From the NCBI RefSeq assembly GCF_026151205.1, contig NC_087084.1, positions 6,869,394 through 6,933,393 of the forward strand: 64,000 nucleotides of DNA, given 5' to 3'. Made by a program: the position numbers and the translations under genes. This document shows positions 3,341 to 63,101 of this stretch, in pieces (position 1 is the first letter of the stretch; every line of letters begins with the position of its first letter). A model generated the notes under the pieces. The model worked only from the letters and a program-made list of their open reading frames with translations, made no database searches and had not been told where the DNA came from. This DNA comes from Bolinopsis microptera. Taxonomy: Eukaryota > Ctenophora > Tentaculata > Lobata > Bolinopsidae.

Positions 3341-3350
3341 CCAGCGTTAA

Positions 3351-34913: not shown

Positions 34914-37900
34914 GATTTCTGAAAATCCAGAACAGTGTGTCCCCTGTTCGGACACACCCGGACAGGGGAGGGGGTGATCTGAAAATCTGCGATTTTTGGC
35001 GGACGTCCTCAGTCAATATTTCACCCTGATCATGGAACCTTGATCATGATAGCTTCAATTTAAATTCAAGGCCAAACTTTGAACTCGACAAGGTTGCCCA
35101 GGTTATCGAAATGGTTCATGGGTTCGCCGACAGGAAATAACCTATTGACTTTATCGTGAGGCCAATCATGTTAAACAAAAAAAAGTTTTACCTGAATGTG
35201 GTCGGGAGTTGCGTCCAGTCAATTTCATATATTCTCAAAATCGCTAGCACATGTTTGCACGGTAACGTCGGTGTGCCACGGAATTTAATGCAGTCACACC
35301 TGACTTCTTCCGATAGAGATACCTAAGATTTTTGCAAGTTTAGAAAGGAATTTAGAAAGGATTCTAGTATCTGACCATGATGTTAGCTCATGGTAAATTA
35401 CTTCATAAACTGTGGTCTGCAATAGTTATTGGTCAGCTAATGGTGAAACTATCATTCAGTAAATTTCTGGATGTTTCTGAATAGGCTCAATAATTACAGT
35501 TTCTGTTACTTTTATCAGAAACTGTCATCAATGATTCTATTCAGAAAAAAGTAGAAATTGCTTGAAAGGTAATCAAAGTGCGAGACTCAATAACGACTAA
35601 ATCAGATTATTGGAGACAAGTTGCAACAAATCCTAGTCTATTAAGTATTAATTACCTTGTACGCGAAGGGATTTCCTTCAGAATCCTTTGTCCTGACAAC
35701 ATATTGGTCACCCAGTTTCCTGATGTCGTCTTTAGTTTTTTCGAAGGATCGAAAATAACTTTCCTGAAAATTACAAAGTTCATATCCTGAACAATAACTT
35801 TGTAGTGACATACATTTGGGTTGAAAAATGTCAAATATCCGAAAACAAAGAAGCTGTACATTATAAATATAAACCTTCACCAAGATGAGATTCTTAGACG
35901 GGATACCATTAAAGAATGATGGTAACACATGGTTCTGTGAAACGATCCTCTTATAACTCACGGAGTCTGATATCATCTGATGAATAATTTTATTTTGTAA
36001 TTTTGTAACTTGATATCTACATGACTATTGTCTATGGGCTTATTGGGCTAACTTTGCGCTCATGGGTTTATGCATGCGAACTGATTCTATAAAACAACTA
36101 GCGAAGAAATAAAACCGAAAATCAAATATGTTTATAATTCGACGATCGATATTGTTTGCTCATATTCTCATTGGTAAGCATTATGTTTATTAAAATTTTA
36201 CCTTGTGTCTATACGTCTGCAGCCTGTTTGGGATAAAGTCAAAAACCAGAGAGGCTAGCAGCTGAGGAAGGGAACGATGGGCGGATACGCCATTAAACAC
36301 TCTGTGTTTCAAAACATTGTTAAGCGACTCTATTCCATTGTTTGTTCTGACCCCAGCAAGAGCTTCCAGATTTCTGTACGGCATAGCCCAATACTGAGAA
36401 GATATATTTATAAAGAGATATTTTAAGGTTATTGAACATCTGCTTGTCAACATTCAAGCCTATTTTTGTTCTGGGTACCCGGTACAGCCGTCATTCATTT
36501 CGTCATTCAATTCGAGTTTTAACAAACTCAAAATGTATGATGCCAACGAAAGAATTAAGAATTTCACAAAAAATCTTACTTCTCTGCGATCTGCGTAATA
36601 GAGGACATAGCTACTAAATGTGGGATTACGTAGACAGAGGTCACTGGTCATCACCTTCCATAATCTTTCCTCGAAATATTGGTCGATTCGAGTGTCGGGA
36701 AGGTGGATGTTGGGGGTCTCTGCGTACATTAAATACAGCATGCATTCGAACGCTTCAACTTTCGCTGAAAATAAAACTTAAGTTAGATATAGCCGTGGAT
36801 CTGTCCAAATGCCTCTAATATATATGATCCAGGTTTGAGGAAACAATGTAATTTAGCTGAAATCATTAAAACATAGAAAACATAGTGCACACATATGGGC
36901 AGGTTTCCTCAAATGAAATTTTGTTATCAGCGCTGATAATCGCTTATTTAGCGCTTTATAATCAGCTAAATTGCAACCAACTTATAGCTTTAACTATAAG
37001 CGCTTATAATTGCTTATAAATGGTTCAAAAAAACGACTACGAATCGCTTATCTGGCCGACCGCTTTTCCACCACTTGTAATAGCCAATCCTACTGGAAAC
37101 AAAAGCGCTTTTTTGAATTACTACATCAATTATAGTCGACTATAAGCGATTTTTTTTAACCGCTTATAATCGATTAAAAACGGCTTTTTTTAAAAAGCGC
37201 TAACTAAGCGATCGTGAGCGCTGATAACAAAATGGAAACCTGCCCACGTATGCTAACAAAATCAAAACATATACCTCTGTCATTGTCGTATTCTCTGTGC
37301 AGGGGAACGTCTGCAGAAAGTATGACAATTAACTTGAATGACAATTCTATGTACCAAAACACACAATAAACACTTAAATGCAATATCAAATATCATGTTA
37401 TAAATCGTATAAATTGCAAAACTTCCTAAATGAAAATCAATGTGGTAGGAAACTAACTCTTTTCGAGGTCTTTTAGCTTGAAGATGCACTTAATTCTTTT
37501 GTCCCAAGCCTGTTTAACATGGAAGTCGCACCAAAAGGACGAATTCCTTGAAAGATTGCCCTCATGGCGTTGATCTCCGCAATGTCTTGGTCGGTCATAC
37601 AGTATGTAGGGGACATTCCCGGATTCCACCCCTTTATGACCGACAGGGCTTCTGCTATGATCTCCTCACCGTTCGGGTGTTCAGAACACGTTATGAAAAA
37701 AGCGACAACCTGAGGCCAGGGTAAAATTAATCATGATAATTATACCTATATATATTATATATATAGGTAATACTTCAGGCTGGCCCAAAATTAGCAACCC
37801 ACACGCAACCCTTAAATAACTCACATAATTGGCATTAGAAGTGCTTGCAAATTTCAGAGAGTATAGATATGGGTCAAACTTAGATTTCCTGAAATATTCG

Positions 37901-40900
37901 TAAAATTTCATCAATTACAGAGGGAGTGGCGTACCACTCCCTCTTTTTCTCTTTTGTCACCACAAAGTGAGAACGTTTTGAGTTAGGAACTCCAGACACA
38001 TGTGGTTTGATAATTGAAGTGCTTCCCCAAAATAATAGTTGGTTGTTTACAACTAAACCGGGTTATGACCATTTTAAGATCTGGCGGATACATGATCTCG
38101 GCACTTAATCTGTGATTTCTTCACTCAATCAATGGTCTAATTGGTTAGAATCTGCTCATAGGACAGGAACCGTGTGGGTAGTTATTTTTGGGCCACCTTC
38201 AAATATTACGTTTAAATTGATAATTAACTTTTATCATTGATCATTCTATTTCTAACCGAAACAAAAAAGACATATACTGTGAATCAGACTCTTGCTTATA
38301 AAAACCAACTAAAAAAGTCACAATTATAACCTGGTATCCTTGGGGTGTTCTACAGGCGAGCAAAAACAGTGGCAAGTTGTAATGATTTGTCTTGTGCGTG
38401 CTGTCCATAAACAAGACGGTACCAAACTGTTTAAGTATATCCTTTTGCGTCTGGTTCTGGTAGACCAAAAGCATCTTCGAGTTCCGAGGATTTTCCTTAA
38501 AGAATGTTTACAAATTTACACATCAATCACTACAAAAATTGAAAACCATCCTAAAATATTAAAGTATTTTATATTTATTTACACTGAATACAATACATGG
38601 CAACAATTTCAAGGAGACTTCATCAAAAATTTAAATAACCTTGTCCGGCTCATCGACGTAGTGGACCGAGTTTCCTTCATGACGTAGTTCTTCGATAATG
38701 GCCTCGAGTCTATCTTTTTCTAGACCTTTTACCGTTACGATATTTCTTATGTCGGTTACTGTTGGGAACCACAGACGGTTGTCCATGTTCACAGGGTATC
38801 GCATAGACTCTGAAATATTTGTATATATTCACAACCAGTAACTGAAGGGTTAAACCAATACACAATTGCGTGTTTCGCAGAATAAAATGGGAATACGGGA
38901 GTGTAACCTAATTCGCAATTAATTAGAAAAGCTTTTAAACACTAACTTTCCCTAAAAGTGTAAAACTATTTCTTGATGGTTAAATACTGATCGAAGCTAA
39001 GAAAGAAATTCCAACTTTAAAGATGGCTTACCCAAGTATGTTGTGATCTCGTTCACAAATATTGTCCTCAACCGCCAAAAGTTGCAACATTTGTCGACAT
39101 TCGTTTTTAGTATGTCCACAACTTTCGGATTGAATGTCGGTCTCTGAAGATGGCCACTGAAATAGTTTTATTTTTGAGGGAGGGAGGGAGGGAAGGAGGG
39201 AGGGAGGGAGGGAAGAAGGGAGGATGTGAGGGAGGATGAAAGGGAGGGAGGGAGGATGTGAGGGAGGATGAAAGGGAGGGAGGGAGGGAGGATGAAAGGG
39301 AGGGAGGGAGGGAGGGAGGGAGGGAGGGAGGGAGGGAGGGAGGGAGGGAGGGAGGGAGGGAGGGAGGGAGGGAGGGAGGGAGGGAAGGAGGGAGGGAGGG
39401 AGGGAGGGAGGGAGGGAGGATGAAAGGGAGGGAGGGAGGGAGGATGAAAGGGAGGGAGGGAGGGAGGGAGGGAGGGAGGGAGGGAGGGAGGGAGGGAGGG
39501 AGGGAGGGAGGGAGGGAGGGAGGATGAAAGGGAGGGAGGGAGGGAGTGAGGGAGGATGAAAGGGAGGGAGGGAGGGAGGATGAAGGAGGGAGGGAGGGAG
39601 GGAGGGAGGGAGGATGAAAGGGAGGGAGGGAGGGAGGGAGGGAGGGAGGGAGGGAGGGAGGGAGGAGGAAGGGAGGGAGGATGAAGGGAGGGAGGGAGGG
39701 AGGATGAAGGGAGGGAGGGAGGGAGGGAGGGAGGGAGGGAGGGAGGGAGGGAGGGAGGGAGGGAGGGAGGGAGGGAGGGAGGGTGTGAGGGAGGGAGGGA
39801 GGGAGGATGAAGGGAGGGAGGGAGGGAGGGAGGGAGAGGGAGGGAGGGAGGGAGGGAGGGAGGGAGGGAGGGAGGGAGGGAGGGAGGGAGGGAGGGAGGG
39901 AGGGAGGGAGGGAGGGAGGGAGGAGGAAGGGAGGGAGGGAGGGTGTGAGGGAGGGAGGGAGGAGGGAGGGAGGGAAGGGTGTGAGGGAGGATGAAGGGAG
40001 GGAGGGAGGGAGGGAGGAAAGGGAGGGAGGGAGGGAGGGAGGGAGGGAGGGAGGGAGGGAGGGAGGGAGGGAGGGAGGGAGGGAGGGAGGGAGGGAGGGA
40101 GGGAGGGAGGGAGGGAGGGAGGGAGGGAGGGAGGGAGGGAGGGAGGGTGTGAGGGAGGATGAAAGGGAGGGAGGATGAAAGGGAGGGAGGGAGGGAGGGA
40201 GGGAGAGAGGGAGAGAGAGAGGGAGGAGAGAGAGGGAGGGAGGGAGGGAGGGAGGGAGGGAGGGAGGGAGGGAGGAGGGAGGGAGGGAGGGAGGGAGGGA
40301 GGGAGGGAGGGAGGGAGGGAGGGAGGGAGGGAGGGAGGGAGGGAGGGAGGGAGGGAGGGAGGGAGGGAGGGAGGGAGGGAGGGAGGGAGGGAGGGAGGGA
40401 GGGAGGGAGGGTGTGAGGGAGGATGAAAGGGAGGGAGGGAGGGAGGGGGGAGGGAGGGGGCTTACCAATTTTCGTGGGTTTCGTGGTGGAAGCTGAAAAA
40501 GAGTCCAAACATTTCATCGGCATTTAGAGCCAAACAGTCAAGTCCCACATCTTTCAACTCCGATTGGGTGTAAGAGTTGTACTTCACATCAAGAACATCG
40601 AACACATAGCACTGGGAAGAGTTTATTCTATGTATACGCATTTCATGTATTAAACTTTATATACATTTAAGGACGTGCTTGATTATTCAAGAATAAGTAG
40701 AAATATTTAGAAAACATAGACCAGACAAACTAGGTCCTGGGAGTTAGTTTTGCAGTCTCCAAAAGAACAATATACAGCATGACAAATGAAAAACAGCAGA
40801 TCTAAAAATCAAAACATATCACTGGCTATCTGGTTTCAACAAGAAACTTGGACACGGTTTTGGAAAAAACTCACTTGGATGTAGGCTTGACAACCAGTCT

Positions 40901-42859: not shown

Positions 42860-42955
42860 GGCAAGTTTCCATAAACGATATTTTATGATCGGCGCCGATA
42901 ATCGCTTATTGAGCGCTTTCTCGGCGCTTTTTTTTTTAAAAACCGTTTATAATAA
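42860..42955. mobile_element. Truncated end of the giant palindrome-rich element
   Basis: Starts GGCAAGTTTCCATAAACGAT and follows the terminal sequence of the element at 48992 through CGGCGCCGATAATCGC and TCGGCGCTTTTTTTTT for about 95 bp, then stops. It lies next to the left edge of the satellite array. Confidence 0.85.
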
Positions 42956-42984: not shown

Positions 42985-45900
42985 TTAAAATATCAAATTG
43001 TTAAATAGAAAGAACTAGATGTACTGATTACTTAATCTATAACTGTCCCCTATATATAATCTACAAGAATTATTCAATTTTTAAATAGAAGCAACTCTGA
43101 ATCGAATTGTCCCCATCTACAGGAAATCATTAAATTATTAAATAGAAAGAACTAGATGTAGTGATTACTTAATGATCTTTAAATCTAATTGTCCCTATCT
43201 ACTGGAAATTATTAAATAGAAGGAACTAGATGTACTGATTTCTTAATGATCTTTAAATCTAATTGTCCCTATCTACTGGAAATTATTAAATAGAAGGAAC
43301 TAGATGTACTGATTTCTTAATGATCTTTAAATCTAATTGTCCCTATCTACTGGAAATTATTAAATAGAAGGAACTAGATGTACTGATTACTTAATGATCT
43401 TTAAATCTAATTGTCCCTATCTACTGGAAATTATTAAATCATTAAATAGAAAGAACTAGATGTACTGATTACTTATACTCAATGATCTCTAAATCTAATT
43501 GTCCCCATCTACTGGAAATCATTAAACTATTAAAAAGTGATTACTTAATGATCTTTAAATCTAATTGTCCCCATCTACTGGAAATTATTAAACTATTAAA
43601 AAGTGATTACTTAATGATCTTTAAATCTAATTGTCCCCATCTACTGGAAATTATTATAAAGAAGGAACTAGATGTACTGATTACTTAATGATCTTTAAAT
43701 ATAATTGTCCCTATCTACTGGAAATTATTAAATTATTAAATAGAAAGAACTAGATGTACTGATAACTTATACTCAATGATCTCTAAATCTAATTGTCCCC
43801 ATCTACTGGAGATCATTAAACTATTAAAAAGTGATTACTTAATGATCTTTAAATCTAATTGTCCCCATCTACTGGAAATTATTAAAAAGAAGGAACTAGA
43901 TGTACTGATTACTTAATGATCTTTAAATATAATTGTCCCTATCTACTGGAAATTATTAAATTATTAAATAGAAAGAACTAGATGTACTGATAACTTATAC
44001 TCAATGATCTCTAAATCTAATTGTCCCCATCTACTGGAGATCATTAAACTATTAAAAAGTGATTACTTAATGATCTTTAAATCTAATTGTCCCCATCTAC
44101 TGGAAATCATTAAACTATTAAAAAGTGATTACTTGATGATCTTTAAATCTAATTGTCCCCATCTACTGGAAATTATTAAAAAGAAGGAACTAGATGTACT
44201 GATTACTTAATGATCTTTAAATCTTATTGTCCCCATCTACTGGAAATTATTAAATTATTAAATAGAAGGAACTAAATGTACTGATTACTTAATGATCTTT
44301 AAATCTTATTGTCCCCATCTACTGGAAATTATTAAATTATTAAATAGAAGGAACTAGATGTAGTGATTACTTAATGATCTCTAAATCTAATTGTCCCCAT
44401 CTACTGGAAATCAATAAATTATTAAATAGAAGGAACTAGATGTACTGATTACTTAATGATCTCTAAATCTAATTGTCCCCATCTACTGGAAATTATTGAA
44501 TTTTTAAATAAAAGGAACTTATAGATGTACTGATTACTTATAATGATCTGTAAATCTAATTGTCCCTATCTAGTAGGAATCATTAAACTATTAAATAGAA
44601 GGAACTAGATGTACTGATCTCTAAATCTAATTGTCCCCATCTAGTGGAAATCATTAAACTATTAAATAGAAGGAACTAGATGTACTGATTACTTAATGAT
44701 CTTTTAATCTAATTGTCCCTATCTACTGGAAATTATTGAATTGTTAAATAAAAGGAACTAGAATACTAGATGTACTGATTACTTAATGATATTTAAATCT
44801 AATTGTCCCCATCTACTGGAAATTATTGAATTGTTAAATAAAAGGAACTAGATGTACTGATAACTTAATGATCTCTAAATCTAATTGTCCCCATCTACTG
44901 GAAATCATTAAACTATTAAAAAGTGATTACCTAATGATCTTTAAATCTAATTGTCCCCATCTACTGGAAATTATTAAAAAGAAGGAACTAGATGTACTGA
45001 TTACTTAATGATCTTTTAATCTAATTGTCCCTATCTACTGGAAATTATTGAATTGTTAAATAAAAGGAACTAGAATACTAGATGTACTGATTACTTAATG
45101 ATATTTAAATCTAATTTTCCCCATCTACAGGAAATCATCAAATTATTAAATAGAAAGAACTAGATGTAGTGATTACTTAATGATCTTTAAATCTAATTGT
45201 CCCCATCTACTGGAAATTATTAAAAAGAAGGAACTAGATGTACTGATTACTTAATGATCTTTAAATATAATTGTCCCTATCTACTGGAAATTATTAAATT
45301 ATTAAATAGAAAGAACTAGATGTACTGATAACTTATACTCAATGATCTCTAAATCTAATTGTCCCCATCTACTGGAGATCATTAAACTATTAAAAAGTGA
45401 TTACTTAATGATCTTTAAATCTAATTGTCCCCATCTACTGGAAATTATTAAAAAGAAGGAACTAGATGTACTGATTACTTAATGATCTTTAAATATAATT
45501 GTCCCTATCTACTGGAAATTATTAAATTATTAAATAGAAAGAACTAGATGTACTGATAACTTATACTCAATGATCTCTAAATCTAATTGTCCCCATCTAC
45601 TGGAGATCATTAAACTATTAAAAAGTGATTACTTAATGATCTTTAAATCTAATTGTCCCCATCTACTGGAAATCATTAAACTATTAAAAAGTGATTACTT
45701 GATGATCTTTAAATCTAATTGTCCCCATCTACTGGAAATTATTAAAAAGAAGGAACTAGATGTACTGATTACTTAATGATCTTTAAATCTTATTGTCCCC
45801 ATCTACTGGAAATTATTAAATTATTAAATAGAAGGAACTAAATGTACTGATTACTTAATGATCTTTAAATCTTATTGTCCCCATCTACTGGAAATTATTA

Positions 45901-48900
45901 AATTATTAAATAGAAGGAACTAAATGTACTGATTACTTAATGATCTTTAAATCTTATTGTCCCCATCTACTGGAAATTATTAAATTATTAAATAGAAGGA
46001 ACTAAATGTACTGATTACTTAATGATCTTTAAGTCTTATTGTCCCCATCTACTGGAAATTATTGAATTATTAAATAGAAGGAACTAGATGTACTTATTAT
46101 TTAATGATCTTTAAATCCAACTGTCCCTATCTACTGGAAATTATTAAATTATTAAATAGAAGGGACTAGATGTAGTGATTACTTAATGATCTCTAAATCT
46201 AATTGTCCCCATCTACTGGAAATTATTAAAAAGAAGGAACTAGATGTACTGATTACTTAATGATCTTTAAATCTTATTGTCCCCATCTACTGGAAATTAT
46301 TAAATTATTAAATAGAAGGAACTAAATGTACTGATTACTTAATGATCTTTAAGTCTTATTGTCCCCATCTACTGGAAATTATTGAATTATTAAATAGAAG
46401 GAACTAGATGTACTTATTATTTAATGATCTTTAAATCCAATTGTCCCTATCTACTGGAAATTATTGAATTATTAAATAGAAGGAACTAGATGTAGTGATT
46501 ACTTAATGATCTCTAAATCTAATTGTCCCCATCTACTGGAAATCAATAAATTATTAAATAGAAGGAACTAGATGTACTGATTACTTAATGATCTCTAAAT
46601 CTAATTGTCCCCATCTACTGGAAATTATTGAATTTTTAAATAAAAGGAACTTCTAGATGTACTGATTACTTATAATGATCTCTAAATCTAATTGTCCCTA
46701 TCTAGTAGGAATCATTAAACTATTAAATAGAAGGAACTAGATGTACTGATCTCTAAATCTAATTGTCCCCATCTACTGGAAATCATTAAACTATTAAATA
46801 GAAGGAACTAGATGTACTGATTACTTAATGATCTTTTAATCTAATTGTCCCTATCTACTGGAAATTATTGAATTGTTAAATAAAAGGAACTAGAATACTA
46901 GATGTACTGATTACTTAATGATATTTAAATCTAATTGTCCCCATCTACTGGAAATTATTGAATTGTTAAATAAAAGGAACTAGATGTACTGATAACTTAA
47001 TGATCTCTATAAATCTAATTGTCCCCATCTACTGGAAATCATTAAACTATTAAAAAGTGATTACCTAATGATCTTTAAATCTAATTGTCCCCATCTACTG
47101 GAAATTATTAAAAAGAAGGAACTAGATGTACTGATTACTTAATGATCTTTTAATCTAATTGTCCCTATCTACTGGAAATTATTGAATTGTTCAATAAAAG
47201 GAACTAGAATACTAGATGTACTGATTACTTAATGATATTTAAATCTAATTTTCCCCATCTACAGGAAATCATCAAATTATTAAATAGAAAGAACTAGATG
47301 TAGTGATTACTTAATGATCTTTAAATCTAATTGTCCCCATCTACTGGAAATTATTAAACTATTAAAAAGTGATTACTTAATGATCTTTAAATCTAATTGT
47401 CCCCATCTACTGGAAATTATTAAAAAGAAGGAACTAGATGTACTGATTACTTAATGATCTTTAAATATAATTGTCCCCATCTACTGGAAATTATTAAACT
47501 ATTAAATAGAAGGAACTAGATGTACTGATTACTTAATGATCTTTAAATCTAATTGTCCCCATCTACTGGAAATTATTAAACTATTAAATAGAAGGAACTA
47601 GATGTACTGATTACTTAATGATCTTTAAATCTAATTGTCCCCATCTACTGGAAATTATTAAATTATTAAATAGAAGGAACTAGATGTACTTATTATTTAA
47701 TGATCTTTAAATCCAATTGTCCCTATCTACTGGAAATTATTAAATTATTAAATAGAAGGAACTAGATGTAGTGATTACTTAATGATCTCTAAATCTAATT
47801 GTCCCCATCTACTGGAAATTATTGAATTGGAAATCAATAAATTATTAAATAGAAGGAACTAGATGTACTGATAACTTAATGATCTCTCAATCTAATTGTC
47901 CCCATCTACTGGAAATTATTGAATTTTTAAATAAAAGGAACTTATAGATGTACTGATTACTTATAATGATCTCTAAATCTAATTGTCCCTATCTACTGGA
48001 AATTATTGAATTGTTAAATAAAAGGAACTAGAATACTAGATGTACTGATTACTTAATGATATTTAAATCTAATTGTCCCTATCTAGTAGGAATCATTAAC
48101 CTATTAAATAGAAGGAACTAGATGTACTGATCTCTAAATCTAATTGTCCCCATCTACTGGAAATCATTAAACTGTTAAATAGAAGGAACTAGATGTACTG
48201 ATTACTTAATGGTCTTTTAATCTAATTGTCCCCATCTACTGGAAATTATTAAACTATTAAAAAGTGATTACTTAATGATCTTTAAATCTAATTGTCCCCA
48301 TCTACTGGAAATTATTAAAAAGAAGGAACTAAATGTACTGATTACTTAATGATCTTTAAATATAATTGTCCCCATCTACTGGAAATTATTAAAAAGAAGG
48401 AACTAGATGTACTGATTACTTAATGATCTTTAAATATAATTGTCCCCATCTACTGGAAATTATTAAACTATTAAATAGAAGGAACTAGATGTACTGATTA
48501 CTTAATGATCTTTAAATCTAATTGTCCCCATCTACTGGAAATTATTAAACTATTAAATAGAAGGAACTAGATGTACTGATTACTTAATGATCTTTAAATC
48601 TAATTGTCCCCATCTACTGGAAATTATTAAATTATTAAATAGAAGGAACTAGATGTACTTATTATTTAATGATCTTTAAATCCAATTGTCCCTATCTACT
48701 GGAAATTATTAAATTATTAAATAGAAGGAACTAGATGTAGTGATTACTTAATGATCTCTAAATCTAATTGTCCCCATCTACTGGAAATTATTGAATTGGA
48801 AATCAATAAATTATTAAATAGAAGGAACTAGATGTACTGATAACTTAATGATCTCTAAATCTAATTGTCCCCATCTACTGGAAATTATTGAATTTTTAAA

Positions 48901-48991
48901 TAAAAGGAACTTATAGATGTACTGATTACTTATAATGATCTCTAAATCTAATTGTCCCTATCTACTGGAAATTATTGAATTGTTAAGTAAA
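42985..48991. repeat. Satellite array, ~82-bp monomer, left block
   Basis: The monomer contains AATTGTCCCCATCTACTGGA, TTAAATAGAAGGAACTAG and GATGTACTGATTACTTAATG in order. Variants include a short monomer lacking the GAAGGAACTAGATGTACT part (TAAACTATTAAAAAGTGATT) and a longer one with an ACTAGAATACTAGATG duplication. The variants recur in fixed order. For example the rare TTTTCCCCATCTACAGG monomer occurs near 45115 and 47250, a spacing of about 2.13 kb. Many 68-codon frames appear because short monomers stay open. They are not genes. Confidence 0.96.
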
Positions 48992-50574
48992 GGCAAGTTT
49001 CCATAAACGATATTTTATGATCGGCGCCGATAATCGCTTATTGAGCGCTTTCTCGGCGCTTTTTTTTAAAAAAAACCGTTTATAATCGATTTTTTTACGA
49101 TTATAAACGGTTTAAAAAAAATCGCTTATAATCGACTATAATTGGTGTCATAATTCAAAAAAGCGCTTTTTTGAATTTAAAAGCGCTTATAAGCGCTTTT
49201 AAAGCGCTTACTAGCGTCGCTGAGCGATTTGAAAGCGGTTTTCCAGTAGGATTGGCGCCAAAAACAGGTGGATAAGCGGTTGGCCGGATAAGCGATTCGT
49301 AGGCGCTTTTTTGAACCATTTATAAGCGATTATAAGCGCTTATAATTGGGGTGCAATTTAGCTGTTTGTAAAGCGCAAATAAAGCGCTTATAAGCGCTTT
49401 TAAAATTGAGTCAGGAAAACGCTATATTACATCTTATAACCGCTTATAATCGATTATAAGCGTTTTTTTTAGAAATCGCTTATTACGGCTAATTCATCGC
49501 TATTTCACCGCTTTTACCGCTTTTCCTATCATCCATGGCCAGGTGAGCAGGAATTAAAAAGCGCTTATAAGCGCTTTTTCGATGCTTCGCCTAACCTGGT
49601 CGGAACGGGGTAGTGCCCGGAATTTAAAAGCGCTTATAAGCGATTTCTCAATTCCCCTTAACCTGGTCGGAACTTGCATGTGCTTTTCTGAGCAACCTGG
49701 GGTGCACCGGCAGAGTCAGGATTTAAAAGCGCTTATAGGTGCTTATGATCGCTTTTTCTACCACTTTTCTTATCACCCATGGCATGGGTTGGCAAGAATT
49801 ATAAAGCGCTTATAAGCGTTTTTCAATGCTGCCCCTTACCTGGTCGGAACGGGGGAGTGCCCGGAATTTAAAAGCGCTTATAAGCGATTTCTCAATTCCC
49901 CTTAACCTGGTCGGAACTGGAGAGTGCCATCTTGCCTGTGCTTTTCTGAGCAACCTGGGGTGCACCGGCAGAGTCAGGATTTAAAAGCGCTTATAGGCGC
50001 TTATGATCGCTTTTCTACCGCTTTTCCTATCACCCATGGCCTGGTTGGCAAGAATTATAAAGCGCTTATAAGCGTTTTTTGAATGATGCCCCTAACCTGG
50101 TCGGAACGGGGGAGTGCCCGGGATTAAAAAGCGCTCATAAGCGCTTTTTAAATGCTGCCCCTAACCTGGTCGGAACTGGAAATCAGAGTGCCCGCTTATA
50201 AGTGCTTTTCTGAGCAACCTGGGGTACACGGCAGAGTCAGGATTTAAAAGCGCTTATGATCGCTTTTCTACCGCTTTTCCTATCACCCATGGCCTGGTTG
50301 GCAAGAATTAGAAAGCGCTTATAAGCGCTTTTTCAATGCTGCCACTAACCTGGTCGGAACGGGGGAGTGCCCGGAATTAAAAAGTGCTCATTAGCGCTTT
50401 TTAAATGCTGCGCTTATAAGCGATTTCTCAATTCCCCTTAACCTGGTCAGAACTAGAAATCAGTGTGCCCGCTTATAGTTATAAGTGCTTTTCTGTGCAA
50501 CCTGGGGTCACCGGCAGAATCAGGATTTAAAAGCGCTTATAGGCGCTTATGATCGCTTTTCTACCGCTTCTACT

Positions 50575-50932
50575 AAATCGCTCGCCCAAATTTTAAGGAA
50601 ATTCTTGTGAAAAGGCCCTTTGGGGCACGAAAGTGATCTAAATCGGTGTATTTTTGGACGCTGATTCCGAATCACCCCCCCATGACGTAGGGTTAAAATG
50701 CTTCCCTGGAGAGTTATGGGCAAAAAACCGTTTTGGTCACGTGACAGGCTAGTAAAATGCGAATTCGATTGTTTAGGGCCCGGGTTAGGGTTAGGCTTGT
50801 GGTAAGGGTTATGGTTAACTTCGGGGTTATGGTTAGGGTTAGGGTTGGGATTAGGATTTATGTAAAAACCGTTTTGTACGGCTGCAAAACCATAAAAACC
50901 AAAGTCACGTGAAATTTTTGGGCGAGCGAATT
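50575..50932 (-). mobile_element. TCGCTCGCCC-type MITE with TTAGGG-like core, inverted copy
   Basis: Its ends are AAATCGCTCGCCCAAATTTT and, inverted, AATTCGCTCGCCCAAAAATT. The interior has GTCACGTGAC at 50736-50745 and a degenerate (TTAGGG)-like tract at 50765-50855. It is the reverse complement of the copy at 52616-52950. Confidence 0.8.
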
Positions 50933-52615
50933 AGTAAAAGCCGAGTTGGACTCCAATATATGGAACAAATATTTTACGAGTGTCACCCGTCAATTCAAGC
51001 AATCACATTCAACATTGCGCTTCGCTAGTTTGGTAAAAATTCACCACTAGACTGGGCCTCGCCAAGCTGTGAATTGAAAAATTGACATCGCATTGTGAGT
51101 CAATATTTTATTTTGTCTCATGTCAGTTCATGCTGTAAAATCACTAAAATGGGCATATCAGCTTGTTTACCGATTACCGCGCAATTGTTTAATTTACTTA
51201 TGACTATGTCACGACGCGACCTGAATGATTCACCTAACCATGTGCTTTCGCGCCACTTCGGGCGCGCTTGATTCACGTGAGGCGGGCGCGCGCTACTGCA
51301 AGCACAAGGGCTCTGGATAGAGCAACCTGAATGATACAAATAGACCCAATACCCATGGTTAACAGGTGATACTCTTAATTGACGGATGTTACTCGTCTAA
51401 AGTAGCGCGCGCCGCTTTCTTCTCGAAATGCCACGATGGCACGTGCTATGTCGGGCCAGACCAGTAACATATAACATGTAATGGTCAAGTGATACTCTTA
51501 AAATATTTATCACAAATATAAGTAATTAGACCGGCGACAATTAAGTGTCTTGCATGCTTATAAATACGTTTTGCATGGTATAAATACGTCTTGTATGGTT
51601 ATAAACACACAAATTTATGGTTATAACTATATATAATACAGCCATGAGGGGTGATTCGGAATTGAAGCGTCCTTGTAGGTTAATAACCTACCAGGACGCG
51701 CGCCGAGTTGGACTCGTCGACGTTGACCATTGTTAATGATCTGGCCCGGCGCGCGCTACTTCGTAGCACTTGCCATCGAGAAGAAAGCGGCGCGTGCTAC
51801 TTCGAAGAAATTTAGACGAGTAACATCCGTCAATCGTCGACGGTCCTAATATTTGAAACAAATATATTACGAGTATCACCCGATGGAGGGTTGGCGGCTA
51901 GATCAAAGCTCAACGGCTTTGGATTAGGGGTGGACGATAAAATAAACTTGCTCAGATTTTAAAATTTTTTGAAACACTGTTTTCTAGAGACTGTGAGAAT
52001 TTTCACAATACCAAATTTGTCATACCTTTTTGGAAAGATCAGTGAGTTTCGCCTCACTAGCTGGGTGCCATTTGCTCTATCCAGAGCCCTTGCGCTTGCA
52101 GTAGCGCGCGCCCACTCACTTCTTGACGTACTTGTGAAACAAGCGCGCCCGAAGTGGTGCGAAAGCACATGGTTAGGTGAAGGGTGCCATATTTGATGGT
52201 GCGCGGCTTTTGGAGCAAAAGTAGCTGTAAAAGTCGCGTAATTTGACCAAACACCAAATTCGTTGATTTTTGTCGTATTATTTCGGACACTTTCCTCGTA
52301 AGTCTATGAGTACAGAGTAAGCTCGCCAATTTTTGTTGCAATCAGAGGTCGGGAAGGATACTCAATATCTATTTGTTTGACGAAAATTGTGCTGGCTGAA
52401 ATTAGCGCTAAAAAACTATCCTACTATACAGTCGGCACGCGCGGCTCACTGTTGATGGCGCACTACTTATCTGATTAGAGCAACGGCAGCACGAAGGCAC
52501 ATGGTTAAGTTAAGTGCAAAATAATCGAACATGCAGAAACTCTTAGCTTTATTATATTGCATTGTATATCATGTGTACGCTTATTTTTGTATAAAAACCG
52601 CGACCGGCTCTTGCT
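50933..52615. repeat. GC-rich dispersed repeats in the centre of the 6-kb element
   Basis: Recurrent blocks: GCCGAGTTGGACTC with CCAATATATGGAACA (50940-50990, also 29740), CCTACCAGGACGCGCGCCGA (51690, also 29730), TCTGGCCCGGCGCGCGCTAC (51735, also 30836), and AAGAAATTTAGACGAGTAAC (51802, also 61972). Short ORFs at 51118, 51959, 51969 and 52057 have no recognisable motif. Confidence 0.6.
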
Positions 52616-52950
52616 AATTCGCTCGCCCAAAAATTTCACGTGACCTTGGTTTTTATGGTTTTGCAGATGTACAAAACAATTTTACATAAACCCTAATCCC
52701 AACCATAACCCCGAAGCTATCCATAACCCGTGTACCTGAACCCAAACCCTAAACAATCGAAATCATGTTTTACTAGCCTGTCACGTGACTAAAACGGTTT
52801 TTTGCCCATGTAACTCTCCAGGGAAATATTTTTACCCTACGTCATGGCGGGTGATTCGGGATCAGCGTCCAAAAATACACCGATTTAGATCAATGTCATA
52901 CCCAAAGGCCTTTTCACAAGAATTTGTCTTAAAATTTGGGCGAGCGATTT
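52616..52950 (+). mobile_element. TCGCTCGCCC-type MITE with CCCTAA-like core
   Basis: A 335-bp element with inverted ends AATTCGCTCGCCCAAA / TTTGGGCGAGCGATTT. Order of internal blocks: TTTCACGTGACC, TGGTTTTGCAG, CCCTAAT and CCATAACCC blocks, CTGTCACGTGAC (52780-52789 is the palindrome), CCCTACGTCATGG, then AGCGTCCAAAAATACACCGA. This copy shows the sequence before the nested insertion at 32635. Confidence 0.8.
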
Positions 52951-54992
52951 CGTAGGAGCGATTCAAACGCGCAAGCTGGCGCGGTTTATTTGTTGCAGTT
53001 TTACTATCTAATAACCAAATTTTACAAGCTATCTCAGCATGCCTGCACGCGCACGGCTTTACTAGCGTATATATACATTACTTTTTTCCTATTGGTACTC
53101 AGCGTGCACTTGTTTTTATGTCCACGATTGATTATGAACAAATACGTGAATGCTGGTCACGCACACACTAACTTTCAATGAGCACCGCACTTTTTTCAGA
53201 CGTCGTGATTCGCTCAGCCCGACTAGAGATTCCTTGGAATGACATAAACAGGCCTGTCATACTCGTTGACAGACTGAGCGTGGCCCAGCGCAATAATTTA
53301 ATTTCATATACTATATTTTTCTTTTGCAAGTTCTGAATGTGAAGTGTGTATGACTGATGACGCAGCGCGCATCGACCGCCACCAGGACAACCACCACCAT
53401 TAACAACATATAAATAAACGCTTGCAAGTGCTTTACAATTTCTGACAATTATTGTCGGAGAACTTTGCCGCGCCGTGCACTTAGCCTTCTTGCTTGGCTT
53501 CTAGATCGCCAGTCTAACAACTATGTTTAAATCCATGTTGATAAATGATAGATAAATCGGTAAAAACCAGCAATAAAAAGTGATTGTAATCGCTTATAAC
53601 CGCTTTTCAAATCCTTAGGGGCAGCATTAAAAAAGCGCTTATAAGCGCTTTCTAATTCCTGCCAACCAGCCCATGGGTGATGGGAAAAGCGGTAGATAAG
53701 CGATCATAAGCGCCTATAAGCGCTTTTAAAATTAAATCCTGACTCTGCCGGTGCACCCCAGGTTGCTCAGAAAAGCACATACGAGTGGGCACTCTCCAGT
53801 TCCGACCAGGTTAAGGGGAATTCAGAAATCGCTTATAAGCGCTTATTAATTCCAGGCACTCCCCCGTTCCGACCAGGTTAGGGGTAGCATTGAAAAAGCG
53901 CTTATAAACGCTTTATAATTCTTGCCAACCAGGCCATGGGTAATGGGAAAAGTGGTAGAAAAGCGATCATAAGCGCCTATAAACGCTTTTAAATCCTGAC
54001 TCTGCCGGTGCACCCCAGGTTGCACAGAAAAGCACTTATAAGCGGGCACTCTGATTTCTAGTTCCGACCAGGTTAAGGGAAATTAAGAAATCGCTTATAA
54101 GCGCTTATTAATTCCAGGCACTCCCCCGTTCCGACCAGGTAAGGGGCAGCATTGAAAAACGCTTATAAGCGCTTTATAATTCTTGCCAACCCATGCCATG
54201 GGTGATAGGAAAAGTGGTAGAAAAGCGATCATAAGCGATCATAAGCGCCTATAAGCGCTTTTAAATCCTGACTCTGCCGGTGCACCCCAGGTTGCTCAGA
54301 AAAGCACATGCAAGTTCCAACCAGGTTAAGGGGAATTGAGAAATCGCTTATAAGCGCTTTTAAATTCCGGGCACTACCCCGTTCCGACCAGGTTAGGGGC
54401 AGCATCGAAAAAGCGCTTATAAGCGCTTTTTAATTCCTGCTCACCTGGCCATGGATGATAGGAAAAGCGGTAAAAGCGGTGAAATAGCGATGAATTAGCC
54501 GTAATAAGCGATTTCTAAAAAAACGCTTATAATCGATTATAAGCGGTTATAAGATGTAATATAGCGTTTTCCTGACTCAATTTTAAAAGCGCTTATAAGC
54601 GCTTTATTTGCGCTTTACAAACAGCTAAATTGCACCCCAATTATAAGCGCTTATAATCGCTTATAAATGGTTCAAAAAAGCGCCTACGAATCGCTTATCC
54701 GGCCAACCGCTAATCCACCCGTTTTTGGCGCCAATCCTACTGGAAAACCGCTTTCAAATCGCTCAGCGACGCTAGTAAGCGCTTAAAAGCGCTTATAAGC
54801 GCTTTTAAATTCAAATAAGCGCTTTTTTGAATTATGACACCAATTATAGTCGATTATAAGCGATTTTTTTTAAACCGTTTATAATCGTAAAAAAATCGAT
54901 TATAAACGGTTTTTTTAAAAAAAAGCGCCGAGAAAGCGCTCAATAAGCGATTATCGGCGCCGATCATAAAATATCGTTTATGGAAACTTGCC

Positions 54993-57900
54993 ATAAAAGG
55001 AACTAGAATACTAGATGTACTGATTACTTAATGATATTTAAATCTAATTGTCCCTATCTAGTAGGAATCATTAACCTATTAAATAGAAGGAACTAGATGT
55101 ACTGATCTCTAAATCTAATTGTCCCCATCTACTGGAAATCATTAAACTGTTAAATAGAAGGAACTAGATGTACTGATTACTTAATGGTCTTTTAATCTAA
55201 TTGTCCCTATCTACTGGAAATTATTGAATTGTTAAATAGAAGGAACTAAATGTACTGATTACTTAATGATCTTTAAATCTTATTGTCCCCATCTACTGGA
55301 AATTATTAAATTATTAAATAGAAGGAACTAGATGTAGTGATTACTTAATGATCTCTAAATCTAATTGTCCCCATCTACTGGAAATCAATAAATTATTAAA
55401 TAGAAGGAACTAGATGTACTGATTACTTAATGATCTCTAAATCTAATTGTCCCCATCTACTGGAAATTATTGAATTTTTAAATAAAAGGAACTTATAGAT
55501 GTACTGATTACTTATAATGATCTGTAAATCTAATTGTCCCTATCTAGTAGGAATCATTAAACTATTAAATAGAAGGAACTAGATGTACTGATCTCTAAAT
55601 CTAATTGTCCCCATCTACTGGAAATCATTAAACTATTAAATAGAAGGAACTAGATGTACTGATTACTTAATGATCTTTTAATCTAATTGTCCCTATCTAC
55701 TGGAAATTATTGAATTGTTAAATAAAAGGAACTAGAATACTAGATGTACTGATTACTTAATGATATTTAAATCTAATTGTCCCCATCTACTGGAAATTAT
55801 TGAATTGTTAAATAAAAGGAACTAGATGTACTGATAACTTAATGATCTCTAAATCTAATTGTCCCCATCTACTGGAAATCATTAAACTATTAAAAAGTGA
55901 TTACCTAATGATCTTTAAATCTAATTGTCCCCATCTACTGGAAATTATTAAAAAGAAGGAACTAGATGTACTGATTACTTAATGATCTTTTAATCTAATT
56001 GTCCCTATCTACTGGAAATTATTGAATTGTTAAATAAAAGGAACTAGAATACTAGATGTACTGATTACTTAATGATATTTAAATCTAATTTTCCCCATCT
56101 ACAGGAAATCATCAAATTATTAAATAGAAAGAACTAGATGTAGTGATTACTTAATGATCTTTAAATCTAATTGTCCCCATCTACTGGAAATTATTAAAAA
56201 GAAGGAACTAGATGTACTGATTACTTAATGATCTTTAAATATAATTGTCCCTATCTACTGGAAATTATTAAATTATTAAATAGAAAGAACTAGATGTACT
56301 GATAACTTATACTCAATGATCTCTAAATCTAATTGTCCCCATCTACTGGAGATCATTAAACTATTAAAAAGTGATTACTTAATGATCTTTAAATCTAATT
56401 GTCCCCATCTACTGGAAATTATTAAAAAGAAGGAACTAGATGTACTGATTACTTAATGATCTTTAAATATAATTGTCCCTATCTACTGGAAATTATTAAA
56501 TTATTAAATAGAAAGAACTAGATGTACTGATAACTTATACTCAATGATCTCTAAATCTAATTGTCCCCATCTACTGGAGATCATTAAACTATTAAAAAGT
56601 GATTACTTAATGATCTTTAAATCTAATTGTCCCCATCTACTGGAAATCATTAAACTATTAAAAAGTGATTACTTGATGATCTTTAAATCTAATTGTCCCC
56701 ATCTACTGGAAATTATTAAAAAGAAGGAACTAGATGTACTGATTACTTAATGATCTTTAAATCTTATTGTCCCCATCTACTGGAAATTATTAAATTATTA
56801 AATAGAAGGAACTAAATGTACTGATTACTTAATGATCTTTAAATCTTATTGTCCCCATCTACTGGAAATTATTAAATTATTAAATAGAAGGAACTAAATG
56901 TACTGATTACTTAATGATCTTTAAATCTTATTGTCCCCATCTACTGGAAATTATTAAATTATTAAATAGAAGGAACTAAATGTACTGATTACTTAATGAT
57001 CTTTAAGTCTTATTGTCCCCATCTACTGGAAATTATTGAATTATTAAATAGAAGGAACTAGATGTACTTATTATTTAATGATCTTTAAATCCAACTGTCC
57101 CTATCTACTGGAAATTATTAAATTATTAAATAGAAGGAACTAGATGTAGTGATTACTTAATGATCTCTAAATCTAATTGTCCCCATCTACTGGAAATTAT
57201 TAAAAAGAAGGAACTAGATGTACTGATTACTTAATGATCTTTAAATCTTATTGTCCCCATCTACTGGAAATTATTAAATTATTAAATAGAAGGAACTAAA
57301 TGTACTGATTACTTAATGATCTTTAAGTCTTATTGTCCCCATCTACTGGAAATTATTGAATTATTAAATAGAAGGAACTAGATGTACTTATTATTTAATG
57401 ATCTTTAAATCCAATTGTCCCTATCTACTGGAAATTATTGAATTATTAAATAGAAGGAACTAGATGTAGTGATTACTTAATGATCTCTAAATCTAATTGT
57501 CCCCATCTACTGGAAATCAATAAATTATTAAATAGAAGGAACTAGATGTACTGATTACTTAATGATCTCTAAATCTAATTGTCCCCATCTACTGGAAATT
57601 ATTGAATTTTTAAATAAAAGGAACTTCTAGATGTACTGATTACTTATAATGATCTCTAAATCTAATTGTCCCTATCTAGTAGGAATCATTAAACTATTAA
57701 ATAGAAGGAACTAGATGTACTGATCTCTAAATCTAATTGTCCCCATCTACTGGAAATCATTAAACTATTAAATAGAAGGAACTAGATGTACTGATTACTT
57801 AATGATCTTTTAATCTAATTGTCCCTATCTACTGGAAATTATTGAATTGTTAAATAAAAGGAACTAGAATACTAGATGTACTGATTACTTAATGATATTT

Positions 57901-60900
57901 AAATCTAATTGTCCCCATCTACTGGAAATTATTGAATTGTTAAATAAAAGGAACTAGATGTACTGATAACTTAATGATCTCTAAATCTAATTGTCCCCAT
58001 CTACTGGAAATCATTAAACTATTAAAAAGTGATTACCTAATGATCTTTAAATCTAATTGTCCCCATCTACTGGAAATTATTAAAAAGAAGGAACTAGATG
58101 TACTGATTACTTAATGATCTTTTAATCTAATTGTCCCTATCTACTGGAAATTATTGAATTGTTCAATAAAAGGAACTAGAATACTAGATGTACTGATTAC
58201 TTAATGATATTTAAATCTAATTTTCCCCATCTACAGGAAATCATCAAATTATTAAATAGAAAGAACTAGATGTAGTGATTACTTAATGATCTTTAAATCT
58301 AATTGTCCCCATCTACTGGAAATTATTAAACTATTAAAAAGTGATTACTTAATGATCTTTAAATCTAATTGTCCCCATCTACTGGAAATTATTAAAAAGA
58401 AGGAACTAGATGTACTGATTACTTAATGATCTTTAAATATAATTGTCCCCATCTACTGGAAATTATTAAACTATTAAATAGAAGGAACTAGATGTACTGA
58501 TTACTTAATGATCTTTAAATCTAATTGTCCCCATCTACTGGAAATTATTAAACTATTAAATAGAAGGAACTAGATGTACTGATTACTTAATGATCTTTAA
58601 ATCTAATTGTCCCCATCTACTGGAAATTATTAAATTATTAAATAGAAGGAACTAGATGTACTTATTATTTAATGATCTTTAAATCCAATTGTCCCTATCT
58701 ACTGGAAATTATTAAATTATTAAATAGAAGGAACTAGATGTAGTGATTACTTAATGATCTCTAAATCTAATTGTCCCCATCTACTGGAAATTATTGAATT
58801 GGAAATCAATAAATTATTAAATAGAAGGAACTAGATGTACTGATAACTTAATGATCTCTCAATCTAATTGTCCCCATCTACTGGAAATTATTGAATTTTT
58901 AAATAAAAGGAACTTATAGATGTACTGATTACTTATAATGATCTCTAAATCTAATTGTCCCTATCTACTGGAAATTATTGAATTGTTAAATAAAAGGAAC
59001 TAGAATACTAGATGTACTGATTACTTAATGATATTTAAATCTAATTGTCCCTATCTAGTAGGAATCATTAACCTATTAAATAGAAGGAACTAGATGTACT
59101 GATCTCTAAATCTAATTGTCCCCATCTACTGGAAATCATTAAACTGTTAAATAGAAGGAACTAGATGTACTGATTACTTAATGGTCTTTTAATCTAATTG
59201 TCCCCATCTACTGGAAATTATTAAACTATTAAAAAGTGATTACTTAATGATCTTTAAATCTAATTGTCCCCATCTACTGGAAATTATTAAAAAGAAGGAA
59301 CTAAATGTACTGATTACTTAATGATCTTTAAATATAATTGTCCCCATCTACTGGAAATTATTAAACTATTAAATAGAAGGAACTAGATGTACTGATTACT
59401 TAATGATCCTTAAATCTAATTGTCCCCATCTACTGGAAATTATTAAACTATTAAATAGAAGGAACTAGATGTACTGATTACTTAATGATCTTTAAATCTA
59501 ATTGTCCCCATCTACTGGAAATTATTAAATTATTAAATAGAAGGAACTAGATGTACTTATTATTTAATGATCTTTAAATCCAATTGTCCCTATCTACTGG
59601 AAATTATTAAATTATTAAATAGAAGGAACTAGATGTAGTGATTACTTAATGATCTCTAAATCTAATTGTCCCCATCTACTGGAAATTATTGAATTGGAAA
59701 TCAATAAATTATTAAATAGAAGGAACTAGATGTACTGATAACTTAATGATCTCTAAATCTAATTGTCCCCATCTACTGGAAATTATTGAATTTTTAAATA
59801 AAAGGAACTTATAGATGTACTGATTACTTATAATGATCTCTAAATCTAATTGTCCCTATCTACTGGAAATTATTGAATTGTTAAATAAAAGGAACTAGAA
59901 TACTAGATGTACTGATTACTTAATGATATTTAAATCTAATTGTCCCTATCTAGTAGGAATCATTAACCTATTAAATAGAAGGAACTAGATGTACTGATCT
60001 CTAAATCTAATTGTCCCCATCTACTGGAAATCATTAAACTGTTAAATAGAAGGAACTAGATGTACTGATTACTTAATGGTCTTTTAATCTAATTGTCCCT
60101 ATCTACTGGAAATTATTGAATTGTTAAATAAAAGGAACTAGAATACTAGATGTACTGTTTACTTAATGATCTTTAAATCTAATTGTCCCCATCTACTGGA
60201 AATTATTAAACTATTAAAAAGTGATTACTTAATGATCTTTAAATCTAATTGTCCCCATCTACTGGAAATTATTAAAAAGAAGGAACTAGATGTACTGATT
60301 ACTTAATGATCTTTAAATATAATTGTCCCCATCTACTGGAAATTATTAAACTATTAAATAGAAGGAACTAGATGTACTGATTACTTAATGATCTTTAAAT
60401 CTAATTGTCCCCATCTACTGGAAATTATTAAACTATTAAATAGAAGGAACTAGATGTACTGATTACTTAATGATCTTTAAATCTAATTGTCCCCATCTAC
60501 TGGAAATTATTAAATTATTAAATAGAAGGAACTAGATGTACTTATTATTTAATGATCTTTAAATCCAATTGTCCCTATCTACTGGAAATTATTAAATTAT
60601 TAAATAGAAGGAACTAGATGTAGTGATTACTTAATGATCTCTAAATCTAATTGTCCCCATCTACTGGAAATTATTGAATTGGAAATCAATAAATTATTAA
60701 ATAGAAGGAACTAGATGTACTGATAACTTAATGATCTCTAAATCTAATTGTCCCCATCTACTGGAAATTATTGAATTTTTAAATAAAAGGAACTTATAGA
60801 TGTACTGATTACTTATAATGATCTCTAAATCTAATTGTCCCTATCTACTGGAAATTATTGAATTGTTAAATAAAAGGAACTAGAATACTAGATATACTGA

Positions 60901-61172
60901 TTACTTAATGATATTTAAATCTAATTGTCCCTATCTAGTAGGAATCATTAAACTATTAAATTGAAGGAACTAGATGTACTGATCTCTAAATCTAATTGTC
61001 CCCATCTACTGGAAATCATTAAACTGTTAAATAGAAGGAACTAGATGTACTGATTACTTAATGGTCTTTTAATCTAATTGTCCCTATCTACTGGAAATTA
61101 TTGAATTGTTAAATAAAAGGAACTAGAATACTAGATGTACTGTTTACTTAATGATATCTAAATCTAATTGTC
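54993..61172. repeat. Satellite array, ~82-bp monomer, right block
   Basis: Resumes the monomer broken at 48991 and continues to CCCCATTTAAGGGGCC. The order of variants copies the left block: from about 55240 it repeats the pattern seen from 44265, an offset of about 10,975 bp. Removing the 6,001-bp insertion leaves a higher-order period near 4.97 kb. Marker monomers TTTTCCCCATCTACAGG lie near 56090 and 58215, again about 2.13 kb apart. Confidence 0.95.
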
Positions 61173-63101
61173 CCCATTTAAGGGGCCAATTAATTAAATA
61201 GTAGCCTCCTGAATAATCTTGCTTGCTTCAAGCTTTCAAGGTTAATATATGTGTTCTTCTGACATTAAAACCACTACAAACATACATATATAATACTTGC
61301 AAACGAGATGAACAGTACCATGCATCGAAAAGTGCCACAAAGAAAAGTTTATAAATCATTAATTTTGCTTGCTTGGATATATGTATTACAGCTGGCATTA
61401 AAACTATAGATAAAGTGAAAGAAGCGTATGACTTAATGAAAAATCAAATGACAGATGACAGATGACAATTGTAATCAAGCTGGCATTAAAACCATACAAA
61501 AAGGAAAAGAAGCGTATGACTTTATGACATGACAAATCAAATGACAGGTGATCAGCAATTAGCACTGACCTGTTTTCCCACACCGAATAAATTTAACTCC
61601 TTGAACAATTAGAGTTCTTTTGGACACCAGACTATTCGGAAATCGGACCTGAAAGAGTTTTAACCTTACAAATTGAACAAAAAAATTAACAAAGGATTGA
61701 AAGCTTAACTCAACCTTTCGGGAACAGAAGCAACACTCATAGATGTTCGTGGAGTATCAAAAAATCACTAGTTAAAATTTGTATCGAATAAGAGAAGATA
61801 TCAATTTGACAAGAAAAGATTTATCGCAGACACGCGCCACGCGGTTTATTTAGACGCTTATCCAATGCGAAATTCAAATATCGCTCTTTTCGTGAAATTG
61901 ATGGCGAGTGAATTAGTAGCGCCGACTTCGTAGCACTTGCCATGGAGAAGAAAGCGGCGCGCGCTACTTCGAAGAAATTTAGACGAGTAACATCCGTCAA
62001 CCACCAACCACGGAACGTTGAAATCTAAATGCTGAAAATGACAAATGACACGATTGAGCTGCTGCGCGAAAGTTTGATTTCGTTCGGAGGAAGCTCACAG
62101 CAGAAAGCTTAACAAAACGAAAAGTTGTATTTTCAAAACTCTGTCCCATTTTCAGATATGAAAATGTCTGAGCACACATTTGACAGAGTGGATGAAATTT
62201 TTGCCCAGAAACCAATTAGTCAGTTAATTGATGATACAGTATGAAAACAAATTGGGTTGAGTCAAAATATCGAAAAAAAATTGGAAAATCATACTGTCCC
62301 AAGGCCATACTCTGTCCCATTTTCAGTTTTTGAAGCTGAAATTTCCAGGCGGCCGAAATTTTACAGTTTTGACCGAATTTCACACCCGCAACCAATTAGT
62401 CAATCAACTATAGATGAAAATTGACACGATTGAAGTAAGTTATATTGTATTCTATTGTAAATGATATGATAATTTAAAGAGAAAAACTCGACTAATTGTT
62501 ACCGATTGATTGTTAAATAATCACTTACTCAAACGATACCAGTTCTTAAAGTTAACCAGTCACGCAGTACGCGTAGACACATGTGACATGGCTATGTGAA
62601 CTTGAAAACAGCTGTTAAAATTTTAACTTTAATAGGATGTTTTGGATATGATCAGTTATTGAAAAAAATTGGTCGAATCGAATTTTAATCGTGGTTCCGA
62701 GTTCACATGCAAATCACATCCTGTTGATGGTATTTTTACAATGTTTTATCGAATAGAAGGTTAAGTTAAGAAATGTTTTTTTCCGTGTTTCAATTGTTAA
62801 TCCATCATATCACACACAGCACTCAGCAGAGATCAGTTAAGGTGTCACGTGACTTTTTGGTTTTGTAGATCTGCAATGAGAGACACGGGCGTTAAATCTC
62901 AGTTTTAGTCTATTGATTTTAATTAAAAAATAACAAGTTATCAAATAGGTTCACTGTCCGTTAGATTAGCGGTTTCTCACAAATTGAAAGGAACTTAAAA
63001 TTAAATGGGTAAAATGTTAGACATTCTATAAAACTAAAAGGCAAGATTCACGGAATTGCAAATTAACCTAAGAAGTTATAGTTATACAGCGTACCTGTCA
63101 A
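61173..63101. other. Non-coding stretch with small duplications
   Basis: Two ~90-bp imperfect copies near 61390-61550 start CTGGCATTAAAAC and contain GAAGCGTATGACTT. A piece of the GC-rich dispersed repeat lies at 61905-62005. Two similar segments near 62139-62230 and 62310-62420 share ACTCTGTCCCATTTTCAG and ACCAATTAGTCA. A GTCACGTGAC site lies at 62844-62853. No exon is supported. Confidence 0.45.

Follow-up and report, generated by a model that had tools for sequence, protein, structure and literature searches.

Foldback transposons are defined by structure: their long arms are inverted and contain tandem repeats in numbers that vary from copy to copy, insertion duplicates the target site, and the middle is variable and often non-coding. 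Tetris, a foldback element of Drosophila virilis, is described as having an outer flanking domain, an array of tandem units of ~220 bp, an inner domain and a variable middle without apparent coding capacity (PMC4079207). Its target duplications measure 8 to 10 bp, three copies are structurally complete, a short relative has the same ends, no autonomous copy was found, and free arrays of its units, resembling satellite DNA, exist as well (PMC4079207). Galileo, a member of the P superfamily, has long arms of copy-dependent length with tandem repeats in some of them, its duplications are mostly 7 bp long (8 bp in three copies), and some copies encode a P-type transposase (PMC4168063, PMC3688188); the THAP domain of this transposase binds repeated sites in the long arms (PMC3688188). 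Tm1, a Mutator/Foldback element of root-knot nematodes, has composite inverted repeats in which a ~14-bp motif recurs a varying number of times; it exists in MITE-like as well as longer forms, its duplications are most commonly 9 bp long, and transposase-coding members are known (PMC3169594). Merlin elements have 5′-GG ends, duplications of 8 to 9 bp and inverted repeats of 24 to 462 bp (PMC8101967).

The family reported here, from the ctenophore Bolinopsis microptera, resembles Tetris in its succession of domains, its duplication length, its non-coding middle, its short relative with the same ends and the failure to find an autonomous copy. With Galileo it shares the long arms of copy-dependent length, with Tm1 the composite repeats and the coexistence of MITE-like and longer forms, and with Merlin the GG ends and the range of duplication lengths. 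The view of the preliminary description that the design is unlike any described family was thus not borne out, as Tetris, Galileo and Tm1 have long arms with internal repeats as well. There are nevertheless differences: 55 copies could be delimited, and none of 100 listed array sites is free, in contrast to Tetris; the duplications are 8 bp long, whereas those of Galileo and Tm1 mostly measure 7 and 9 bp, respectively; the copies that were read contain no recognisable transposase, unlike in Galileo and Tm1; the arms of the copy studied most closely extend over ~1.57 kb, far beyond the range given for Merlin, and no Merlin enzyme was found in the family. The available part of the Tetris report contains no mention of palindromes phased at 10 bp as observed here. 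Literature searches for ctenophores and foldbacks returned no paper, and no description of the family was seen among the papers listed for ctenophore, Mnemiopsis or Bolinopsis transposons and for foldbacks with subterminal palindromes. An entry in Repbase or Dfam is possible. The family adds a recently active foldback from a ctenophore, and its 55 delimited copies, ranging from 111 bp to 9 kb, with mostly perfect duplications among those read and with 10-bp-phased palindromes, provide a clean natural series on the role of long repetitive transposon arms.

The element in the window

The window, by which we mean the whole stretch of 64,000 nucleotides that was analysed, contains at positions 48992-54992 a 6001-bp inverted-repeat element with many AGCGCTTATAAGCGCT-type palindromes. 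It starts with GGCAAGTTTCC at 48992 and is closed by the complement of GGCAAGTTTCC at 54992. The outer ~0.76 kb of the two arms (48992-49754 on the left, 54233-54992 on the right) are 99-100% complementary, and the inner segments, reaching ~50565 on the left and ~53566 on the right, show 86-96% identity in the 25 pairs listed of 149. Comparison with other copies divided the arms further. A left outer terminal inverted repeat (48992-49554, forward strand), nearly constant in an alignment of 36 arms from 18 copies, has its counterpart on the right at 54433-54992 (reverse strand), as delimited by arm comparison and the same alignment. The left tandem array (49555-50566, forward strand) consists of units of ~244-263 bp with palindromes (P), AACCTGGTCGGAAC (A) and GGTGCACCGGCAGAGTC (G), and the right array (53566-54432, reverse strand) has a unit order unlike that of the left. 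When up to two mismatches were allowed, 32 16-mers of the AGCGCTTATAAGCGCT type were found in the window versus 0.01 expected; 30 of them lie inside the element, and 8 of these 30 are exact. These results confirm the preliminary description with respect to the exact coordinates of the element, its ends, arms and arrays, and the 16-bp palindromes accompanied by two types of block.

No coding capacity was recognised in the core (50567-53565), which is pieced together from short stretches akin to dispersed repeats. Block N (50567-50952, forward strand) is a relative of a dispersed repeat, and a second, inverted N block (52605-52958, reverse strand) shows 83% identity to it. Stretches of 36 to 295 bp resemble DNA elsewhere, including elsewhere in the window, and comparison of the left arm with 138 kb of non-element DNA gave a single weak match of 45 bp (82%). 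The earlier proposal that the element had swallowed other repeats holds for these stretches, but core blocks are common to several copies, and because much of the core of the window copy recurs in this way, we infer that most of it was already in place when the family began to spread.

The element is inserted in a minisatellite of ~82-bp units that spans 43132-61177 on the forward strand (43132-48993 and 55010-61177), and it lacks a target duplication, with mismatches at 6 of 8 positions. A solo end fragment of the main family, 94 bp long and 97% identical, lies nearby at 42860-42953 (forward strand); it had been noted before as a truncated end with slightly different bounds. Likewise, a relative previously given as 349 bp long proved to be real and to measure 347 bp (36898-37244). 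It belongs to another subfamily (locus W349), has the terminal inverted repeat GGCAGGTTTCC and is flanked by an 8-bp duplication whose left copy CACATATG (36890-36897) and right copy CACGTATG (37245-37252) differ by one mismatch. This relative sits between two exon-like pieces of a ZSWIM1/3-type, MULE-derived protein (36193-38507, reverse strand; PF21056, E value 5e-10), which were considered as a source of the enzyme. An assembly artefact, raised at the outset as the condition under which the inverted arms would be discounted, is unlikely, as the same ends recur in other copies, whose flanks and array orders are different. An Rfam search of the whole window gave no matches. The window also contains a long GAGG microsatellite with long open frames on both strands (39176-40458) and very homogeneous tandem arrays of 108 bp (441-1608) and 50 bp (3351-4402), both with 98% matches.

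Copies in the genome and history of the arms

When the 264.65-Mb assembly (232 contigs) was searched with the terminal 31 bp at up to three mismatches, 230 sites were obtained, 113 forward and 117 reverse, compared to none with the control; viral contigs gave no match to the 31-bp end. The 100 sites listed of these 230, all exact, formed 46 head-to-head pairs and 8 unpaired sites. Together with nine elements from fetched loci and the window, the 46 pairs give 55 delimited elements of 111 to 8961 bp (median, 5720 bp), 48 of which are at least 2.8 kb long. Long forms are favoured among the nine additions, which come from a search with a 209-bp arm sequence or from the window itself, and the list of end sites is restricted to exact ends, so that diverged short forms are undercounted; among the listed pairs, 40 of 46 reach at least 2.8 kb. 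AACCTGGTCGGAAC occurs at 771 sites in the genome, and all 100 listed sites lie within delimited elements.

Flanks were read for 27 elements of the main family, and the 8-bp duplication was perfect in 18, had one mismatch in 3 and was not clear in 6, the latter, which include the window copy, showing 2 to 6 mismatches of 8. In the 18 complete fetched copies it was perfect in 11 and had one mismatch in 3, and in the remaining copies L009, L017, L018 and L019 there were 6, 5, 2 and 3 mismatches, respectively, with L019 matching over 7 bp. Both L029 and L030 have perfect duplications. This also holds true for five of six miniature elements, the exception being L056 with three mismatches, and for six of eight other-subfamily relatives read at both ends (L043 and L058 to L062), W349 having one mismatch and L057 three. 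Seven further loci (L044 to L050) were left out of every duplication count: a scripted search for a second end and a duplication gave nothing convincing for L044 to L047, L049 and L050, and in L048 a second end-like stretch ~108 bp away has no clear duplication. The postulated transposon family, with ends common to its copies, is real.

The 36-arm alignment comprised the window copy and 17 fetched copies; L014 and W349 were excluded, as were L022 and L023 from the copy counts because only a single end was visible in these two of 20 loci. Across the copies, a near-constant outer arm of ~560 bp is followed by tandem units and then by the core. The palindromes and the two other constant blocks vary in number and order between arms and between copies, L014 lacks an array, and the coreless L029, with its perfect duplication, contains an array with repeated 346-bp units. 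The outer arms of the 18 copies diverge by a mean of only 1.55% from their consensus, for which reason the family is taken to be young. Arms of the same copy showed a mean identity of 98.65% (36 arms, 18 copies), a value reached by none of 5000 random pairings. A core marker gave the orientation of 14 of the 18 aligned copies, and in these identity was 98.99% within a copy versus 97.64% (same side) and 97.65% (opposite side) between copies, although the other arm of the same copy was the best or tied best match for only 18 of the 36 arms. As the arms of one copy resemble each other more than they resemble those of other copies and have no left or right identity, the two arms of a copy probably recombine, judging from these sequence comparisons. 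Conversion or inversion between arms would be the simplest cause of such a side-less history. Solo end fragments adjoin another copy at L063 (C8:8217108-8217800) and at the right edge of L018; they are possibly marks of insertion hotspots or of aborted events.

Enzyme and affiliation of the family

The preliminary description had stated that the element lacks a transposase and had proposed a search for an autonomous copy. The longest stop-to-stop frame was 152 amino acids in the 18 complete fetched copies and the window copy and 111 amino acids in L029 and L030. Six further central stretches gave at most 147 amino acids in five cases and 207 amino acids in the sixth, L039 (C7:15005600-15009600), in which this frame (3121-3741), lying within a long element, was judged by eye to be reverse-transcriptase-like. 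In none of these copies was a transposase recognised; intron-split genes or families outside the searched set could be missed. Six-frame comparison of the core of L018, the sole core compared in this way, with Pfam gave no family, and visual inspection of open frames in four other-type and four unpaired-end loci revealed no autonomous partner. The genome contains 296 matches to transposase domains of the MULE, IS1595/Merlin and hAT types, and none starts inside the 55 delimited elements. The IS1595/Merlin and MULE results cover these 55 elements, and an autonomous copy is possible among the end sites beyond those listed. A KDZ/Zisupton search had no matches in the genome and was likewise silent in control genomes.

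Because no autonomous partner was found, we infer that the enzyme acts in trans. In our view, the family very likely represents a non-autonomous foldback-type cut-and-paste DNA transposon. Its long inverted arms with copy-dependent numbers of tandem repeats, its duplications (perfect in 18 of the 27 elements read, one mismatch in 3, not clear in 6) and its variable, non-coding middle agree with the structural class. A transposase encoded elsewhere in the genome would recognise the terminal ~50 bp, excise the element and reinsert it at a cut staggered by 8 bp. The transposase, or else a host factor, would additionally dock at the palindromic half-sites with their 10-bp phasing; these would raise capture or pairing of the ends without being required. 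Unequal exchange would let the arrays grow and shrink, conversion or recombination would take place between the arms of a copy, and filler DNA added during repair at the centre would give rise to the patchwork core.

Membership in the Merlin superfamily, to which the GG ends and 8-bp duplications would conform (PMC8101967) and for which the genome holds 58 matches to PF12762, several with open frames of 318 to 337 amino acids, appears rather doubtful: none of the 58 starts inside the 55 elements, one lies within 6 kb of them, and six Merlin neighbourhoods of 3.0-3.3 kb contain no GGCAAGTTTCC-like sequence at up to one mismatch. The family was not filed under Merlin because the defining enzyme was not found in it. 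GG ends and 8-bp duplications, moreover, also occur outside Merlin. A Mutator-like foldback is an equally tentative assignment. Mutator is given as the apparent superfamily of most foldbacks, and 8 to 10 bp as the duplication length of Tetris (PMC4079207), and there are 88 MULE matches in the genome; however, none of these starts inside the 55 elements or less than 6 kb away from them, and the same holds for a distance of 8 kb around 19 other-type ends. Elements of the hAT type have C/TAG-type terminal bases. The family agrees with hAT in its 8-bp duplication but not in its ends, which read GGCAAG, nor in a dimerisation domain in its members, as none of 150 scored hAT matches (365 candidates) starts inside the 55 elements; one lies within 6 kb. 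That the sequences are satellite DNA or a structural repeat rather than a transposon, as their tandem internal arrays might suggest, is extremely improbable: all 100 listed of the 771 AACCTGGTCGGAAC sites lie inside end-delimited elements, and dispersed copies have distinct duplicated targets. A satellite origin was rejected, since it is contradicted by the target duplications.

The Merlin-type transposases at the 58 places form a group of their own. Several of the open frames comprise 318 or 337 amino acids and have equal or near-equal scores, suggesting a recent spread; a simple search for GG together with an 8- to 9-bp duplication did not locate the ends at six of these loci.

Palindromic half-sites

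The half-sites of the palindromes were defined as CGCTTAT, ATAAGCG, CGATTAT and ATAATCG. The window copy contains 91 of them, versus a mean of 2.7 and a maximum of 9 over 200 first-order randomisations. In 20 related sequences pooled, the distances between half-sites (six 7-mer forms) peaked at 5, 10, 15, 20, 25 and 30 bp, with smaller peaks including 13, 16, 18, 34 and 39 bp. The 5-bp peak is due to the two halves of one palindrome, and we read the spacing as a 10-bp helix-turn phasing with sites in both orientations. In 16 alignments with eight relatives, which share descent and are not mutually independent, half-site positions were conserved 8.8 points above other positions, and none of 540 circular shifts was as good. 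As the half-sites are phased in multiples of 5 bp and conserved above their surroundings between subfamilies, they are probably protein-binding sites, a prediction from sequence in agreement with the dense binding array proposed earlier. The binding of the Galileo THAP domain to repeated arm sites offers, by analogy, a model for such half-site arrays.

The half-sites look constrained, yet at least some transposition can do without the arrays: perfect 8-bp duplications flank derivatives of 111, 269, 312 and 359 bp, which retain 2 to 10 half-sites and no 16-mer at up to two mismatches, as well as a 123-bp relative that has no exact half-site. This weakens the docking step of the mechanism. The same miniature elements, together with the expansion of arrays by whole units as in L029, speak for a reading in which the transposon is the same but slippage and exchange between the arms produce the palindromic arrays passively, with no function in binding. 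We regard this reading as possible but unlikely, given the 10-bp phasing, the conservation of half-sites in relatives, qualified by their shared descent, and the dominance of long forms among the listed pairs, qualified by the undercounting of short ones.

A more speculative idea, to which we give little credence, is that an abundant DNA-binding protein of the host, such as a CTEP-like architectural zinc finger of ctenophores, docks on the phased arrays. Each insertion would then plant a ready-made multi-site chromatin anchor, and giant forms would dominate through binding of a host factor rather than of the transposase. In Mnemiopsis leidyi, transposon insertions are reported to be frequent at promoters taking part in chromatin loops (PMC12221973), and this provides a host-side reason to look at the arrays. 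The loop anchors described there have a GC-rich motif with two CpGs (PMC12221973), for which we claim no match to the AGCGCTTATAAGCGCT-type palindrome. Dense half-sites were also observed in a diverged, single-ended relative, in which they extend over ~950 bp (L050, C6:12183083-12187082, positions 101-1050).
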